From an uncultured Spirochaetales bacterium (GTDB taxonomy: Bacteria; Spirochaetota; Spirochaetia; Sphaerochaetales; Sphaerochaetaceae), in assembly GCA_949295675.1 (NCBI GenBank), contig CASFMA010000058.1, forward strand, positions 1 through 35,663: DNA of 35,663 nt, in the 5' to 3' direction. Under the pieces are notes generated by a model. That model saw only the letters and a list, made by a program, of their open reading frames with translations, was not told where the DNA came from and searched no databases. Of this stretch, positions 1,891 through 16,178 are shown piece by piece. Each line of letters starts with the position of its first letter. Within the stretch, counting starts at the first letter, position 1. The position numbers were made by a program, and so were the translations under genes.

Positions 1891-3582
1891 TCAGTTATCG
1901 TTTTCATCATACTTCTGGACTTCCGTGTCCTTCAGCCAGAAGTAATCGTTCGTATCACGCCTCTTAGTCTCATGGAAATCATCATATCCATAAGGCTTCG
2001 GAGGTGCTTTCCTTCTCTTCTCATCCCTGCCGAATGGCCTGCGGTCAGAGCCGTCCGCACCATAGCGAGGAGGCCTGCGGTCCGAAGAGAAGCGATCAGA
2101 GCGGTATGCCCTTCCAGTCTCGTTGTCCCAATCATCCCTTCTTCTGTCTGAGAACCTTGGGCGGTAATCATCACGGTCGGAGCGATAGCGGGGCCTGTCA
2201 TCACGGCGGAAGTCCCTGTCCCGGTCGCTGTAGCGAGGGCGGTCATCACGATAGCGGGGACGATCATCATAATCGCGGTAACGAGGCCTGTCATCACCTC
2301 TCCTTCCATCCCTGTAGTCATCGCGGTAGCGTGGTCTGTCATCACGATAGCGAGGCCTGTCATCACGGCGGAAATCCCTGTCCCTGTCACCGTAGCGGCC
2401 ACCTCTGTCCCTGTCATCACGCCTCGGATACCCTCGTCTGTCATCATCCCTGAAACGAGGTCTGGCATCTCTCCTTCTCTCAGGACGTCTGCCGTCATCC
2501 CTTCTTTCCCTTCTCTCTTCCCTTTTCTCTGTCTCAGGCTCATTCACGCCTGCTTCAGCGTCGATTGAAAGACGCTCAATCTTCTCTTCGTCCATAACTC
2601 TCTTCTTTCTCTTCGTCGCGGCGGCCTTCACTTCCTTCATATCCGCCACCTTCTTCATCCACCAGACCCTGAGCGCGTTACGCTTTGCCGAGAATCCCAG
2701 AGCCCTCACCTCATCAGTAATCTCCATTATCTTCCAGTACGGCTTCAGCTTTTCCTTCGAGAAGACAAAGCCGGAGATATTCTCAGAGAAAAGCAGACAT
2801 CCGCCAGGTGCAAGCACATTTGATATCATCCAGAGATATCTGAGGTAGTCCCGCCCGACATCGAAATCATCTGCCTTGTGCGAGTTGGAAAAGGCCGGGG
2901 GATCGAATATGACTATATCGAACTTGAGCCCTTCTTCCACGCATCTTCCGAGATAGCTGCCGGCATCCTCTGCGATGACGCTGTACTTAGCCTCATCAAG
3001 GAAGCCATTTGCCACAAGATTCCTTCTTGCCCATGCAGAGTAAACATTCGACAGGTCCACGCTGGCAACGGACTCGGCACCGCCTGCAGCAGCATAGACA
3101 GAGAAGGATCCGGTATATGAGAAAAGATTGAGCACCCTCATGCCTCTGGACATATCCCTGATCATGCGCCTTGTGTTCACATGATCCAGGAAAAGCCCTG
3201 TATCGGCATATTTCCTCAGCTCGCACTCAAAGGAAAGACCGCTTTCAAGGACATTGACGACAAGGCTGTCATCCCCCTTCTCATGCTGTTCCCTTCCCTC
3301 TCTCTTCTTCCTCTGCACGTAGATGATCTTATCATTCTCTATGTAGAGGAACCTTGACACAAGATCCTTCATGACAATTACATCATCATCGCTCATGCCA
3401 CCATCGGCATAATCGACTATGCGCGCATACTGCCCGAAAAGCTCGACCGTAACGGGAAAAGCTTCCATGTTCCTGTCATACACCCTCGATACCGTGGACT
3501 CCGTCTCCTTCATCCATCTGTGGGCGTCAAGGGCATTCTTCTTGAGGATCTTCGAAAAATCCTTCTTATCGATTTCTAGCAT
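1891..3582 (-). CDS. RlmK-like 23S rRNA methyltransferase with Arg/Asp-rich C-terminal tail
   Basis: This is a SAM-dependent class I methyltransferase resembling the C-terminal (RlmK, m7G) half of RlmKL. It has the characteristic segment ADTGLFLDH, motif I LNLFSYTGSFSVYAAAGG (about residues 151-168, numbered from the ATG at 3582) and the catalytic-site motif DPPAFSNS (about 227-234). The THUMP domain and RlmL half of gammaproteobacterial RlmKL are absent. After about residue 350 comes an unusual ~190-residue low-complexity tail rich in Arg, Asp, Tyr and Pro, built on repeats of RPRYRDD and RDRDFRRDD. It ends in a less repetitive C-terminus (FWLKDTEVQKYDEND). Such tails are known from RNA-binding proteins, so RNA tethering is inferred. 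An in-frame TTG three codons upstream (3591) is an alternative start; the ATG is preferred. The exact rRNA target is unproven. Confidence 0.8.
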   Translation of the reverse strand: MLEIDKKDFSKILKKNALDAHRWMKETESTVSRVYDRNMEAFPVTVELFGQYARIVDYADGGMSDDDVIVMKDLVSRFLYIENDKIIYVQRKKREGREQHEKGDDSLVVNVLESGLSFECELRKYADTGLFLDHVNTRRMIRDMSRGMRVLNLFSYTGSFSVYAAAGGAESVASVDLSNVYSAWARRNLVANGFLDEAKYSVIAEDAGSYLGRCVEEGLKFDIVIFDPPAFSNSHKADDFDVGRDYLRYLWMISNVLAPGGCLLFSENISGFVFSKEKLKPYWKIMEITDEVRALGFSAKRNALRVWWMKKVADMKEVKAAATKRKKRVMDEEKIERLSIDAEAGVNEPETEKREERRERRDDGRRPERRRDARPRFRDDDRRGYPRRDDRDRGGRYGDRDRDFRRDDRPRYRDDRPRYRDDYRDGRRGDDRPRYRDYDDRPRYRDDRPRYSDRDRDFRRDDRPRYRSDRDDYRPRFSDRRRDDWDNETGRAYRSDRFSSDRRPPRYGADGSDRRPFGRDEKRRKAPPKPYGYDDFHETKRRDTNDYFWLKDTEVQKYDENDN

Positions 3583-3591
3583 CCGGGGCAA

Positions 3592-3620
3592 ATATTACGA
3601 AAATACGGGATGAAAGACAA
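3592..3620 (-). promoter_or_regulatory. Promoter of methyltransferase gene
   Basis: On the minus strand there is TTGTCT (-35, 3615-3620), a 17-nt spacer, then TAATAT (-10, 3592-3597). The ATG at 3582 follows nine bases later with no ribosome binding site, so the leader would be only 2-3 nt. Confidence 0.5.
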
Positions 3621-3632
3621 CAACCTTGTCAT

Positions 3633-3662
3633 TTGTCGTTTCCATGTTTTTTCATGTAGAAT
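3633..3662 (+). promoter_or_regulatory. Promoter of 155-aa hypothetical gene, leaderless geometry
   Basis: TTGTCG (3633-3638), an 18-nt spacer and TAGAAT (3657-3662) are followed by exactly six bases and the ATG at 3669. The intervening CAGGAT contains an AGGA, but too close to the start for a normal ribosome binding site. The promoter is divergent from, and almost abuts, the methyltransferase promoter. Confidence 0.5.
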
Positions 3663-3668
3663 CAGGAT

Positions 3669-4136
3669 ATGGAAATAAATGATACAGCTCAGTTCATCAA
3701 GGAACGAGAGGAGAGGCTGGGAAGCAGGATACGGTACAGGACATACTGCACATGGTATGCCCGCATCGGACACGAGAAAAGGGAGTATGGTGTGTTCCTG
3801 TACACAGACGGCAGGACAATGGCTTATGAGGATTTCGACAGGGAACCTCAGATCCTCGGCATACCGATAAAGAGGAGGAACAAGGAGAAATACGAGAAGC
3901 TTGAGGTATCATTCCCTGTTTCCTCCATAGCATCGATTGACCGCACCTCGCTGAAGGATGCTGAAAAGGCGTTCGACGCAAGACGGGATACAGCAAAGAG
4001 CGCAGGGCTCTTCTCCCGTCTGTTCCGCAAGCTTGTGACCAGGATTATGCTTGATGACGGAACTGTGCTATTCTTCGAGATGATGGACCACAAGGATTTC
4101 CTGAAAAGAATAGAAGAATTCAAGGAGGAGCTATGA
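3669..4136 (+). CDS. Conserved-looking hypothetical protein, possible bacterial PH-like fold
   Basis: This is a 155-residue, charged, soluble protein with no signal peptide or membrane segment. I do not recognise the family. The pattern of short beta-type stretches (GVFLYTDG, KLEVSFPVSSIASIDR, KLVTRIMLDDGTVLFFEM) ending in an amphipathic helix (DFLKRIEEFKEEL) resembles bacterial pleckstrin-homology/GRAM-like domains; this is inference from pattern only. The stop overlaps the start of the phosphohexomutase gene by four bases (ATGA), so the two are translationally coupled and their functions may be linked. Confidence 0.7.
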   Translation: MEINDTAQFIKEREERLGSRIRYRTYCTWYARIGHEKREYGVFLYTDGRTMAYEDFDREPQILGIPIKRRNKEKYEKLEVSFPVSSIASIDRTSLKDAEKAFDARRDTAKSAGLFSRLFRKLVTRIMLDDGTVLFFEMMDHKDFLKRIEEFKEEL

Positions 4137-8010: not shown

Positions 8011-8181
8011 TCAGATACGTGATAAACCCTGCACTGCCATTGATTCTATAGTACCGACAGCACAGCCGAACTTAGGCACTGTCACGCATTCCTCGTCATT
8101 AACCTTCTCGCCCTTGAATAAATGGTCGAGGTCTCCAAGAACCCGCACATGTCCGAAGGCCTCAAGATAGCCAGACAGAGC
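8011..8181 (-). pseudogene. C-terminal fragment of an unidentified protein, fused to the tape-measure remnant
   Basis: In a frame different from the tape-measure gene, a 56-codon open stretch runs from just after a TAG to a TGA at 8011. It has no start codon. It reads as plausible protein (YLEAFGHVRVLGDLDHLFKG, then a segment ending AVQGLSRI), with good codon use. It looks like the C-terminal end of a longer gene joined to the tape-measure start by deletion. I do not recognise the family. Confidence 0.4.
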
Positions 8182-8890
8182 CTATCTTCTCCAGCTTCCC
8201 GGTGTCAGTATCAGCGATAGCCGCAGCCATATCGCCATAGGTGCCTGCGACTTCAGCAAGAAGAAGCTGCTGCGCTTCATAGAGGCCATTCTGTTCCTGG
8301 ACTTTCTTTATATTCTCAGCCTGCTTTTCTGTAAGCTGTATTCCCTTCTCTTTCAGGGATTCAATCTCGCCTACTGGATCCGCAAGTGCCTGAGCCAGAT
8401 CATGTACAGCACCGATTGCATCATCCCCGATTGCTACAGCCATATCAAGGACTGTTTTGATAGCCTCTGGCAATGTCTCTCGGCTTATCTTCCTTGTCGC
8501 TATAAGCATCTGCTCTACAGCAATGATCTCCTGATCAGTATATGTGGTGGTCTTCGAGAAAGCATCCGCAAGATCCAGAAGCTCTCCTGTCGACATACCG
8601 ATGACATTCTGTGTAGCACGAAGGGTAGCTTGAAATTTACGCTCTGCAAGCTCCTGGGCTGAATAGGCTGTAACGAGTTCAGCTCCAGCTCTTGCAACAA
8701 CACCGATTGCTTTGGCTACAACTCCAGCAGCTGTTGTAATGGCAGCGAACCCAGCAGCGACAGAAACAAATGATCTCCTTGTCTCCTCGCTTTCTTTCTG
8801 CAGTTGATCAAGCTTCTGCTTGATAGACTGAATACCCGCAACAGCCTGCTGAGTATTTGCTGAAATTTGGATTGCAATATTAGATGCCAT
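8162..8890 (-). pseudogene. Phage tail tape-measure protein, N-terminal remnant
   Basis: The 242-residue product starts MASNIAIQISANTQQAV and continues with a helical, Ala/Gln-rich region (VAGIQSIKQKLDQLQKE), a hydrophobic stretch (about 45-75) and the AxxxGVS-like tape-measure helices (LDLADAFSKTTTYTD, ALADPVGEIESLKEKGIQLT). The ending DTGKLEKIGSVW is the point where tape-measure proteins usually continue for several hundred residues; here a stop follows at 8162. The protein is therefore truncated and probably non-functional. It is preceded, in normal phage order, by a small membrane protein and a tail-assembly chaperone. The ATG at 8890 has a weak AAGG upstream. Confidence 0.72.
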
Positions 8891-12896: not shown

Positions 12897-15800
12897 TCAC
12901 TTTCCCCTTGCTATAAGCTGTTCTCCGACTATGCGGCATATCTTCCAGTTCGAAGGAGAGAAGGAGGATGGCGTAATCTTCCTCTCCTCTGCTGAAAGCA
13001 GGATGAAATCATCATCGAAAGAGAGGACGAGAGCATTCCATGAGCCTGCATGGCGGGAATACATCACAGCACCGGCATTGTTCAGGATCTCCTCCCTGCG
13101 AATATCGTCCATGACGACTTTAGGAGTGGCTATGAGTATGGAAAGGGAATAATCGAAGATCGAGAACATCTTGTCCTTCCCATCTTCTTTCTGCCTGTTC
13201 CAGCTTCTTCTTATGACATCCTCAAGATATGACTGCATATCAGGGCCAGATGAACGTATGAAGTCAACAAACGTACTCTTTGCCCCGACTTTCGCTGCAA
13301 TATCCTTAAGCACGCCAGAAAGATCAGAGAAATCATCTGCAGCAGTGCCGTCCCCATTGCCGACCATCACGAAAACAGAGCCTTCCCCGCTCCCATCATC
13401 TGAACGCTTGATGACCCCACGGTCAACCATATCTGAAACATTATCCGCATCAGTATGCTCTGAAACGGTATCATCAGCATCTTCTCCGCCATCTGATGAG
13501 ACATCTGCCATGGCAGCTCTTTCAGGTTCGGCATCAGGAGTTTCCGAAGCAGCCTCAGGGCTGCATGCAGCTTCCTCAGCATCTTCCGATCCATGCTCAA
13601 TATCGCTATCAGGAATCATGCTGCCATCTTCAAAGATGGTCTCTGAGGACTCCTCTATACCTTCGTCAATATCGGAATCAGCTGCAGCGCTCTCTTCTGC
13701 ATCGTCAAGGGAAGATTCAGGGCTGCAAACGGCTTCCTCTGCATCTTCCGGTCCCTGCTCAATATCGCTATCAGGAATCATGCTGCCATCTTCACTGATG
13801 GTCTCTGATGACTCCTCTATACCTTCATCAATACCGGAATCAGCTGCAGCGCTCTCTTCTGTATCGTCAAGGGAAGATTCAGGGCTGCATGCAGCTTCCT
13901 CAGTATCTTCCGGTCCCTGCTCAATATCACTGCCATCTTCGCTGATAGCCTCTGGATTCTCCTCAGCCTCATGATCATCATCTGCAGCATCGCAAGACAC
14001 TGAATCGGCAGAGGATTCTTCACATCCAATAGAAGAGGCTTGGGTATCATCAGGATACTCTTCATCTTCAGAGGTTTCATCGCTTTCATAAATCGCAGTT
14101 GGAACGTAATCATCAGAAGAAGATTCCTGATCCATAGGTTCATGCACTGATTCAGGAGCAGCTGACCAGTCTGGAGCCTCTTCTTCATGTCGGGCTTCCT
14201 GCTCCTTTATGTAAGCAGTCGCGAAATCAGAAGCTTCAGACTCTTCCTCCTCATACTCAGCTTCCTCCTCCTGGCTTACCTCTTCTGTCTCCAATTCAGA
14301 TTCTGTCTCCTCTTCCGGGTTATCGAAGAGCCCCTCGAAGAGGTCAGCCTGATCACTGTCGTAAGGGCTTTCCTTCTGATAGAGATCTTCCTTCTCTACC
14401 TCATCATAGAGCTCTTCATCCTCTATCTCATCCTCATCATCAGGAGGCAGCACATCGCCTTCCTCATAGCTGTAGTCGTCATCATCCAGCTCTTTCTCGT
14501 ACTCATCAGCTTCTGCATCGCTTTCCTCATCTTTCTTTATGAGCTCGCTTGTAAGCTCATACTTATCCTGAAGCCTCCTGATCTCCTCCTCGCTGGGAGA
14601 GACCTGATGGTACTCAGGAAGTGGAGATTCATCCAGGGCCTTCTCCTTCTCAGCGATGGCCTTCGCCTTCTCGTCATCATCCTCCCTGTCATACTCATAC
14701 TCGTCTGAGATCTCATCATCGACATCATCGACAACTTCCTTGTCATCGATATCATCCTCATCAAGGTAATCAAGTATCTCAGTCTTCTCAGGAAACTCCA
14801 GCGAACCGAATATGGTACGGTGGAACTCTTCCCTTCCTTCTGGGGAATTCGCTGCCTTTATAAGATAGTAGACAGATGATGAGAACACGCCATCGCTGAC
14901 AAGCTCAAGCGGATCAGAGCTGTCAGGATCGAGTATCAGCAGCTTATGCCCGTCCTGAGGCTTCACATGCTTGTCCTCTTCATGCTGGTGCACCCTTGAT
15001 TCATAAAAGGCAGGATTCTCTACAGCATTGACCTCCGTGACCGATGAAAGTATCGAGATATCAACCTTGTTTCCATCGAATGAATAAACGCCAACCGTAT
15101 CAGTCTCAGAGAAAAGCAGCCTGCATGCAGCAGCTGCTGCCGCACTGTCACGAAGATAAAGTCCGGCATTAAGTGCCAAGATGCGCTGGCCATATGAAAG
15201 TATATGGGACTGGACAAATGAGAAATACATCGAGCCGAACCTGACAAATGGAAAGACAGTTGCCGGCCAGAGTCCTTTCCTCAGGTATTCGCTGATATCC
15301 AAAGAGCCGATAGGCCTTGAAAGCGACTGATAGACATCGCTTGGAAGATCAGCCGCGAACTCCGGACGGAACAAGTCAAAATCATCACGCCTGCCCTGCA
15401 GGTCACGGACACGCATCTCCCACTTGTTCTCACGGACTATCTCATCGCGGATATCATCATCAGAACGGCCGGAATCGCCTTCCTCTGCCCTTTTCCTGGC
15501 CATAAGCAGAAGCATCTCGGCCTTGTAGACAGAAAAATCCTCAGAAAGCTTATCGATGCCTTCAAGCCCATATACAGCGATCTTCTCTATCCCGGAAACA
15601 AGCGTCCTCAGATCTGTCCCGAACTTCTCCTTTATGATCTTCTCATCATCAAAGGCATAGCCATACCAAAGGCATGCGTATTTCTCTATAGACCCGTGGC
15701 TCTCTTCTGGCGGGAAGAACTGTGCTGTGAGGACCGCACGATAGCTCTCAGCGTTCTCTTCAGAGACAAGGCCGCTCCTGACAGCATAGACAGTATAGCT

Positions 15801-16178
15801 TTCTATATATCTCAGGAGCCTCTTGACTGTATCCTCAGCAAGCGACAGCACCCTGTTCCAGTCCTTCTGCTTTATATCGCGGTTGGTAGAAGCTGGATAG
15901 GAGGTATCGTAGAGCGTTGACTGGAGGATAGACTGAAGCAGGACAGGAAGGAGATGGGCATACAACCCCTGGAATTCGTCCCGGTTCTTCGTCCGTGATA
16001 TGCGCCTCTCTTCCCAGGCTGCCATCTTAAGCATCTCAAGAGGATGATAAGGCCTCATCGTCTTCGCGATATTCTTCATATCCAGCCCCAGATAGTTCAG
16101 GGCTTCCTGCATGTTCTTCTCAGCTTTCTCCCTGGACATCGCAGCAAGGGATGAAAAGTCGGCAAACAATGAGTCCAC
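12897..16178 (-). CDS. 1093-residue acidic repeat protein of unknown function
   Basis: I do not recognise the family. Three parts are visible. Residues 1-470 are a mixed, folded-looking region that starts helical (MSREKAEKNMQEALNYLG) and has a hydrophobic patch (WPATVFPFVRFGSMYFSFV). Residues 470-930 are an extremely acidic, low-complexity region (mostly Asp, Glu and Ser), including two and a half 54-residue tandem repeats. Residues 930-1093 form a second folded-looking domain (VFVMVGNGDG, SIFDYSLSILIATPKVVMDD, ALVLSFDDDFILLSAEE). There is no signal peptide or membrane span, so it is probably cytoplasmic. The start is GTG at 16178 behind a strong AAGGAG. It lies between a PLP aminotransferase gene (18 bp upstream) and the inositol-phosphatase-family gene (2 bp downstream), so it is cotranscribed with metabolic enzymes. 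Confidence 0.85.
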   Translation of the reverse strand: MDSLFADFSSLAAMSREKAEKNMQEALNYLGLDMKNIAKTMRPYHPLEMLKMAAWEERRISRTKNRDEFQGLYAHLLPVLLQSILQSTLYDTSYPASTNRDIKQKDWNRVLSLAEDTVKRLLRYIESYTVYAVRSGLVSEENAESYRAVLTAQFFPPEESHGSIEKYACLWYGYAFDDEKIIKEKFGTDLRTLVSGIEKIAVYGLEGIDKLSEDFSVYKAEMLLLMARKRAEEGDSGRSDDDIRDEIVRENKWEMRVRDLQGRRDDFDLFRPEFAADLPSDVYQSLSRPIGSLDISEYLRKGLWPATVFPFVRFGSMYFSFVQSHILSYGQRILALNAGLYLRDSAAAAAACRLLFSETDTVGVYSFDGNKVDISILSSVTEVNAVENPAFYESRVHQHEEDKHVKPQDGHKLLILDPDSSDPLELVSDGVFSSSVYYLIKAANSPEGREEFHRTIFGSLEFPEKTEILDYLDEDDIDDKEVVDDVDDEISDEYEYDREDDDEKAKAIAEKEKALDESPLPEYHQVSPSEEEIRRLQDKYELTSELIKKDEESDAEADEYEKELDDDDYSYEEGDVLPPDDEDEIEDEELYDEVEKEDLYQKESPYDSDQADLFEGLFDNPEEETESELETEEVSQEEEAEYEEEESEASDFATAYIKEQEARHEEEAPDWSAAPESVHEPMDQESSSDDYVPTAIYESDETSEDEEYPDDTQASSIGCEESSADSVSCDAADDDHEAEENPEAISEDGSDIEQGPEDTEEAACSPESSLDDTEESAAADSGIDEGIEESSETISEDGSMIPDSDIEQGPEDAEEAVCSPESSLDDAEESAAADSDIDEGIEESSETIFEDGSMIPDSDIEHGSEDAEEAACSPEAASETPDAEPERAAMADVSSDGGEDADDTVSEHTDADNVSDMVDRGVIKRSDDGSGEGSVFVMVGNGDGTAADDFSDLSGVLKDIAAKVGAKSTFVDFIRSSGPDMQSYLEDVIRRSWNRQKEDGKDKMFSIFDYSLSILIATPKVVMDDIRREEILNNAGAVMYSRHAGSWNALVLSFDDDFILLSAEERKITPSSFSPSNWKICRIVGEQLIARGK
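13545..13943 (-). repeat. 162-bp tandem repeats within the acidic protein gene
   Basis: Two full and one partial copy of a 162-bp unit encode 54-residue repeats with DIEQGPED near the start, then CSPESSLDD, SAAADS and DEGIEESSET. The copies begin at residues ~751, 805 and 859. Copies differ at few positions, which points to recent duplication and possible copy-number variation between strains. Confidence 0.85.

Follow-up and report, generated by a model that had tools for sequence, protein, structure and literature searches.

The window (the whole stretch of DNA that was analyzed, 35,663 nucleotides of contig CASFMA010000058.1 from the uncultured Spirochaetales bacterium GCA_949295675.1, a genome assembly of 130 contigs that is 78% complete) encodes a stand-alone RlmK-like methyltransferase, read from an ATG at position 3582 of the minus strand, in which the catalytic core is followed by a predicted helix and linker, a long mixed-charge region and a conserved C-terminal motif (Table 1). 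A second gene, coding for a protein with a predicted PH-like fold, diverges from the first across a shared upstream region. Elsewhere in the window, a 1093-aa protein without a Pfam family (12897-16178, minus strand) contains a long acidic low-complexity region, and its gene a 162-bp tandem repeat at 13555-13928 (91% matches). A 242-aa fragment resembling a prophage tail tape-measure protein (8162-8890, minus strand; Pfam TMP_2, 4e-14) is perhaps a prophage remnant.

Table 1. Features of the methyltransferase gene and its divergent neighbor, in window coordinates
Feature	Position	Strand	Basis
Whole gene, stand-alone RlmK-like methyltransferase with tail, 563 aa (stop codon 1891-1893)	1891..3582	-	
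RlmK-type methyltransferase core, residues 1-312	2647..3582	-	Pfam PF10672, PDB 3v97, Foldseek, AlphaFold2
Predicted helix and linker, residues 315-341, ends MDEEKIERLSID	2560..2640	-	AlphaFold2 helix 315-340
Arginine-enriched mixed-charge, Tyr/Phe-containing disordered region with RPRYRDD-type repeats, residues 352-521	2020..2529	-	
Tandem repeat, 21 bp x 2.5, 83% matches	2317..2368	-	TRF
Conserved C-terminal motif KPYGYDxFxxTKxRDxxxxFWLK, residues 522-563	1894..2019	-	
Shared upstream region between the two divergent genes, 86 bp	3583..3668	.	
Divergent neighbor, 155 aa, no Pfam family, predicted PH-like fold	3669..4136	+	Predicted model, Foldseek, VIA-align

An RlmK core alongside a complete RlmKL

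In Pfam searches, the 563-aa protein matched Methyltrans_SAM (PF10672, 1.5e-24) and the related Cons_hypoth95, and THUMP, the RlmL domain and UPF0020 were all absent from the ORF, so that it fails as a THUMP-containing RNA-modifying enzyme. Residues 7-308 aligned with PDB 3v97 (E ~1e-44) over residues 394-699 of that structure only, and 3v97_A was also the top Foldseek match of the predicted core (E 2.4e-27), for which AlphaFold2 gave block means of 81 to 99, that is, high confidence, across residues 1-340. The protein likewise fails as a bifunctional RlmKL, with the THUMP and RlmL halves absent, only positions 395-702 of the 704-position NCBIfam profile (NF008748) aligned, and a score of 242.7 bits against a cut-off of 466. 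It also fell below the cut-offs of the NCBIfam models for RlmI-type 23S rRNA methyltransferases, namely RlmI (75.1 bits versus 712), the C1962 methyltransferase (55.2 versus 575) and the C2499 methyltransferase (101.6 versus 650). Both marks of an RlmK-type domain, the Methyltrans_SAM/RlmK fold and the DPPxFSNS motif (here DPPAFSNS, residues 227-234), were found. Among 115 RlmK domains, 33 positions are at least 97% conserved, including D176, D227-P228-P229, S232, S234 and N268, which we take to be cofactor and catalytic positions. The core is thus an RlmK by sequence and predicted fold, with the catalytic positions intact and, as an enzyme alone, ordinary.

The sequence-only reading had noted that the RlmK part occurs here without THUMP or RlmL, and Pfam, NCBIfam and PDB 3v97 confirm this for the ORF; the genome itself, however, has both. 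A 744-aa RlmKL is encoded by another gene (L049:2056-4287), with RlmL_1st, THUMP (2.9e-19), UPF0020 and Methyltrans_SAM recognized by Pfam and an NCBIfam RlmKL score of 779 bits against the cut-off of 466. Across the genus, a second match lies in an RlmKL-length frame in 35 of 36 genomes, the window's own included and G028 being the exception, where domain content was checked in the window's own genome only and frame length was used for the others. Compared with E. coli RlmKL (YcbY; PDB 3v97, 3v8v), with whose RlmK domain it has the fold and the catalytic motif in common, the protein lacks the fused RlmL and THUMP parts, has diverged at 14 otherwise conserved positions, carries an added tail, and occurs alongside a real RlmKL.

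A tree built from 101 RlmK domains places the 15 tailed rows together with one tail-less member, L159, in a single clade (100/100), with L060 and L039, Spirochaetia without this tail, as nearest sisters; the genome's own RlmKL sits apart, in an 18-row, all-fused set (100/99). By this phylogeny, the 563-aa protein is a diverged second RlmK of Spirochaetia, paralogous to the RlmKL of the same genome. The placement of L159 is less sure owing to its long branch and unusual composition; with the tree read as drawn, L159 would have lost the tail. Of the 14 positions at which the tailed clade departs from a residue conserved to at least 85% among 74 other RlmKs (for example D38N, Y100H and K235H/R, the last adjoining the catalytic motif), some are also altered in tail-less Spirochaetia relatives. 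These changes fit a separate substrate or stage, short of proof.

The protein might instead be a redundant copy of the RlmK half of RlmKL (m7G2069), a reading compatible with any view of the tail and one that we consider rather unlikely. The fold and catalytic positions, the same as in RlmK, speak for redundancy; the age and separateness of the clade, the 14 shifted positions with K235 next to the catalytic motif, and the retention of the gene together with RlmKL speak against it, although co-existence as such would also be compatible with a redundant enzyme.

Among named organisms, tail-bearing relatives include Sphaerochaeta sp. MAG3 and Spirochaetales MAGs, hence our designation of the family as Sphaerochaeta-like. 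The core was present in 55 of 60 relatives; among 119 family genomes, 110 had a match at E <= 1e-40. Of the latter, G345 and G352 have RlmKL only, and 103 of the remaining 108 have open frames (stop to stop) of at least 420 aa; shorter frames occur in G291, G374, G397, G429 and G430, that of G374 running off its contig. Forty of the family loci found at this threshold were read individually. When 92 loci were classed, six were tailed family loci and the other 86, fused or stand-alone, ended no more than 26 residues past the aligned core, in a set drawn largely from the best 80 matches, so that more distant RlmKs may have tails. Tail-less stand-alone RlmKs were found in other Spirochaetia, Bacteroidota, Planctomycetota and Proteobacteria. 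Most simply, the tail would have arisen once, in one Sphaerochaeta-like family.

A mixed-charge tail that looks selected as protein

Segmentation places the mixed-charge segment at residues 352-548, the last 27 of these 197 residues being part of the conserved end. The segment consists of 34% R, 24% D, 3% K, 4% E and 13% aromatic residues, with FCR 0.64, NCPR +0.09 and kappa 0.08, and AlphaFold2 gave pLDDT below 50 for nearly all of residues 364-563. The RPRYRDD-type tail of about 190 residues described from the sequence is real and far beyond chance, at 57% R+D in the best 197-residue stretch versus a median of 12%, the extreme among 592 stop-free stretches of that length sampled from the six frames of the window.

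A short linker motif separates core from repeats in many members. Within the genus it resembles ERLSxD, and in several other genera it is acidic/hydrophobic and [DE]xLxLxW-like; the pattern search for it matched some members and missed others. In several other genera (L153-L158, L167, L174, L177, L192), the R/D region follows a long acidic stretch, so that the tail as a whole is first acidic and then mixed-charge. Two deep members of the genus, L037 and L038 (from G021 and G020), have short lysine-rich tails in which the end motif is kept as LPYGMD. Most of the family otherwise has R/D-type tails; close relatives thus do possess the repeats, whose absence there the sequence-only reading had listed as evidence against itself. 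It had also listed tail-less homologues with the same activity; as judged from sequences alone, tail-less homologues do exist.

That reading further raised the possibility of a tail that binds RNA directly in place of the THUMP domain found in RlmKL. The ORF does lack THUMP, and the segment has a clear net positive charge in 62 of 67 proteins, both in keeping with the idea. As stated, it was rejected: a complete THUMP-bearing RlmKL is present in the same genome and RlmKL-length second frames in nearly all genomes of the genus, tail-less stand-alone RlmKs occur in several phyla, and the charge of the tail is well mixed and near neutral. In the available part of PMC11194073, moreover, the L and K domains of E. 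coli RlmKL are described as able to work as individual enzymes, and RlmK and RlmL are said to exist separately in other bacteria. The tail is thus probably no substitute for an absent RNA-binding domain, and we regard such a replacement as improbable.

Across 67 proteins, the mixed-charge segment has median fractions of 0.29 R, 0.03 K, 0.18 D, 0.075 E and 0.11 aromatics (range 7-15%). The median charged fraction is 0.58, net charge +0.07 and kappa 0.09, and in 65 of the 67 the charges are spread more evenly than in the average of 200 shuffles, with the reservation that R/D repetition alone lowers kappa and that the segment finder favors R and D. The ratio R/(R+K) avoids this bias because it uses no segmentation: in all 66 proteins compared, the tail has a higher value than the core (median 0.84 versus 0.50). 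Core GC3, which ranges from 0.15 to 0.80, correlates with R/(R+K) of the core (rho 0.41, p 7e-4) but not of the tail (rho 0.13, p 0.30); these correlations treat related species as independent, apart from a set thinned to 33 sequences (<70% core identity), in which rho was 0.40 (p 0.02) for the core and 0.00 for the tail. Between species, in-frame tail composition is closer (mean JS 0.074) than that of the two off-frames (0.110 and 0.107; 65 proteins). The unit RPRYRD is written with four different codon spellings, so recent copying of DNA does not suffice to explain the repeats. Because the arginine preference is independent of GC3, the codons varied and the charges evenly mixed, the tail looks to be under selection as protein rather than accidental. 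The lysine-rich short tails of L037 and L038 and the tail-less L159 count against arginine and length being indispensable.

A tolerated, functionless low-complexity expansion by DNA slippage would account for unit sequences and lengths that differ widely among genera and for the short tandem DNA repeat in the gene, a 52-bp tract that is the sole DNA-level tandem repeat reported there by TRF. We consider this very improbable given the synonymous codon variety of the repeats, the in-frame compositional similarity, the GC3-independent arginine preference, and a frame kept into the conserved end in 67 of 71 family loci. Chance or a mistranslated repeat was rejected on the conservation of the end motif, the extreme R+D content, the in-frame JS values and the GC3-independent arginine.

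Alternatively, the R/D region might be a flexible spacer only, with the conserved end motif, and the linker, tethering the enzyme to a partner. From residue 321 to the end, the tail ranges from 101 to 646 aa (median 254; 66 proteins) while the end motif is kept, and its repeat units vary by genus, as would suit a spacer; yet a preference for arginine over lysine whatever the GC, aromatics at about 11% and even charge mixing are not required of a mere spacer, and we find this reading unlikely. What stands of the earlier interpretation is thus a conserved, disordered R/D tail, apparently selected, on an enzyme of the rRNA methyltransferase type, with a composition comparable to that of eukaryotic R/D domains; the replacement of THUMP does not stand.

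The C-terminal motif and the divergent PH-like neighbor

The distinct C-terminal end noted from the sequence is real and conserved in the family. The motif KPYG[YF]D, around P[YF]G[YFM][DEG], occurs in 67 of 71 family loci (66 by pattern and L186 by eye), the 71 being 70 loci from family genomes plus the named contig L059; a 72nd locus, L061, lies outside the tailed clade. The motif is missing from four of the 71 loci: L025 and L028, which are cut by contig ends, L159, which has no tail, and L185, with a frame that stops at 313. Searched with a profile of the end motif, 16 family genomes each yielded a single strong match, in every case in the methyltransferase gene, with the next best match at E 0.02, and eight genomes outside the family had nothing below E 0.4. 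Against 296 genomes of the phylum, the A1 end-motif profile matched 10 below E 1e-3, all of the Sphaerochaeta-like family. In G310, the match lies in a 130-aa frame, probably the rest of a split methyltransferase gene, on a contig other than that of the core; a second match in G300 (E 6.4e-4) looks spurious, its 95-aa frame overlapping a longer, gene-like frame. PDB contained no match to the profile up to E 10, and AlphaFold2 predicted neither a structure for the motif nor docking onto the core, from an alignment in which 5 of 67 rows carried the motif.

Searches with the tail found this gene as the sole match in its own genome up to E 10, and nothing outside it below E 1e-3 in 20 genomes (best other match E 0.002, in G277); such searches are insensitive to low-complexity sequence and may have missed other R/D tails. 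No title or abstract describing this protein or tail was found in a literature search whose coverage excluded most subscription journals.

A QPYGRD motif resembling the KPYGYD end was observed in the R/K-rich C-terminal tails of the first four family helicases read (L241, L242, L243, L244), presumably of the DbpA-type DEAD-box class. In a survey of that class, PYG.[DE] occurred in two of six family helicases, with FYGRD in one more, and in none of 21 non-family frames read, three of the 30 survey loci giving no frame. In G014, G021 and G277, the methyltransferase keeps the end motif and the helicase is without PYG.[DE]. An end motif common to the methyltransferase and DbpA-type helicases may be entertained as a weak lead from these sequences. 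In four other DEAD-box helicases (L247-L250), the low-complexity tails have in common a stretch like TLEERMAYYKKEF / SLEERLAYYKQQY and a C-terminus resembling KKGFFARLFGKK, perhaps for docking or membrane binding.

The divergent 155-aa protein matched no Pfam or other sequence family. Its model (mean pLDDT 87, from 9 rows) gave a best Foldseek match at E 9.7e-4 and TM 0.47, and VIA-align scores up to Z 10.4 (rmsd 2.8 over 101 residues, 11% identity); the top structural matches were PH-domain chains such as BTK, GRK2 and Lam6, with Dcp1a bound to a proline-rich sequence also among the VIA-align fold matches. The predicted structure thus places the protein in the PH superfold, a shared fold that shows no function. 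In eukaryotes, short proline/aromatic motifs are recognized by PH folds of the EVH1/Dcp1 type.

A homologue of the 155-aa gene lies upstream of the methyltransferase in 27 of the 34 genus loci with at least 600 nt of upstream sequence and in 13 of 13 other loci of a 23-row set of the tree (split 99/92), with which L054-L059 were counted because they are tailed and in which L054 and L055 are contigs already counted; in distinct clade loci, the window included, this amounts to 38 of 45. Beside other RlmK or RlmKL genes it was found at none of 75 loci. The orientation is divergent in all 40 loci with a match, and the intergenic gap is at most 201 nt except in L040, L044 and L061 (491-747 nt). All seven clade loci without an adjoining copy are in the genus: the gene is about 2 kb off in G007 and G016 and on another contig in G009, G018 and G023, and G025 and G029 were outside the homologue search. 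Eight genomes of families f34 and f52 have homologues with no detectable RlmK within a flank of about 1.5 kb, so the pairing is not universal, and the gene also accompanies tail-less clade members, so that the pairing is not explained by the tail alone. Promoter and terminator scans found sites no more frequent than in shuffles.

Candidate function of the tailed enzyme

Taken jointly, the data are best explained, tentatively and at somewhat less than an even chance, by an active stand-alone RlmK paralogue with a tail that acts through its composition and an end motif that docks. We infer the activity, RNA target, concentration on ribonucleoprotein particles and docking partner as follows. The gene product would be an active RlmK-type rRNA methyltransferase, a diverged paralogue kept beside the normal RlmKL, and its most likely substrate would be a 23S rRNA base, probably guanine, methylated in the course of 50S assembly at a site or stage left uncovered by RlmKL. 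Within one Sphaerochaeta-like family, the enzyme would have gained the disordered tail. Its R/D/Tyr region may contact ribonucleoprotein particles, or itself, weakly, at many points and with balanced charge, so that the enzyme becomes locally concentrated on assembly intermediates, and the conserved KPYG[YF]D end would be a short linear motif docking on one specific partner.

R/D domains of this type are known as arginine-enriched mixed-charge domains and found in nuclear speckles, according to the part of PMC9324279 available, in which phase separation was absent for an alternating D/R peptide but present for a blocky one that had affinity to RNA, and accumulation rose with net positive charge. 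Since the tails are evenly mixed and weakly positive, the behavior of the alternating peptide in that excerpt (PMC9324279) leads us to expect weak multivalent association with ribonucleoproteins rather than a tight RNA clamp; the same result also counts against the composition-acting tail of our preferred explanation. Like the eukaryotic domains, the tail is made mainly of R and D, near-neutral to slightly positive, with interleaved charges; unlike them, it is bacterial, sits on an rRNA methyltransferase, and contains about 11% aromatics and a conserved C-terminal motif. There are parallels in bacteria. As described in the accessible portion of PMC13269538, Rho of Bacteroides thetaiotaomicron is likewise an RNA enzyme with a charged disordered region, in which short conserved motifs control condensation, although that region, likened here by description, is K/E-rich and N/Q-rich rather than R/D-rich. 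The C-terminal region of RNase E, from what is available of PMC4435900, is also disordered and non-catalytic, and its microdomains recruit partners; RNase E is a different enzyme whose partners are known, whereas here there is a candidate only.

By analogy, and as a bacterial counterpart of the eukaryotic speckle/nucleolus principle, an rRNA methyltransferase might enter a ribosome-assembly condensate via an R/D domain selected for its composition, with the terminal KPYG[YF]D read by the adjoining PH-fold protein as its dedicated partner, a scenario that we regard as improbable.

The finding looks to be a family-specific, selected-looking tail with a docking-like end, on a paralogous RlmK linked to a PH-fold gene. 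Should the tail act as its conservation suggests, it would provide a target for two uncharacterized things, a second RlmK-type methylation in spirochaetes and a PH-fold protein. The tailed family, with sister families that have the same enzyme without a tail, a single tailed clade and a conserved candidate partner gene, would then also be a natural setting in which to study, in bacteria, how arginine mixed-charge domains selected for composition serve ribosome assembly.
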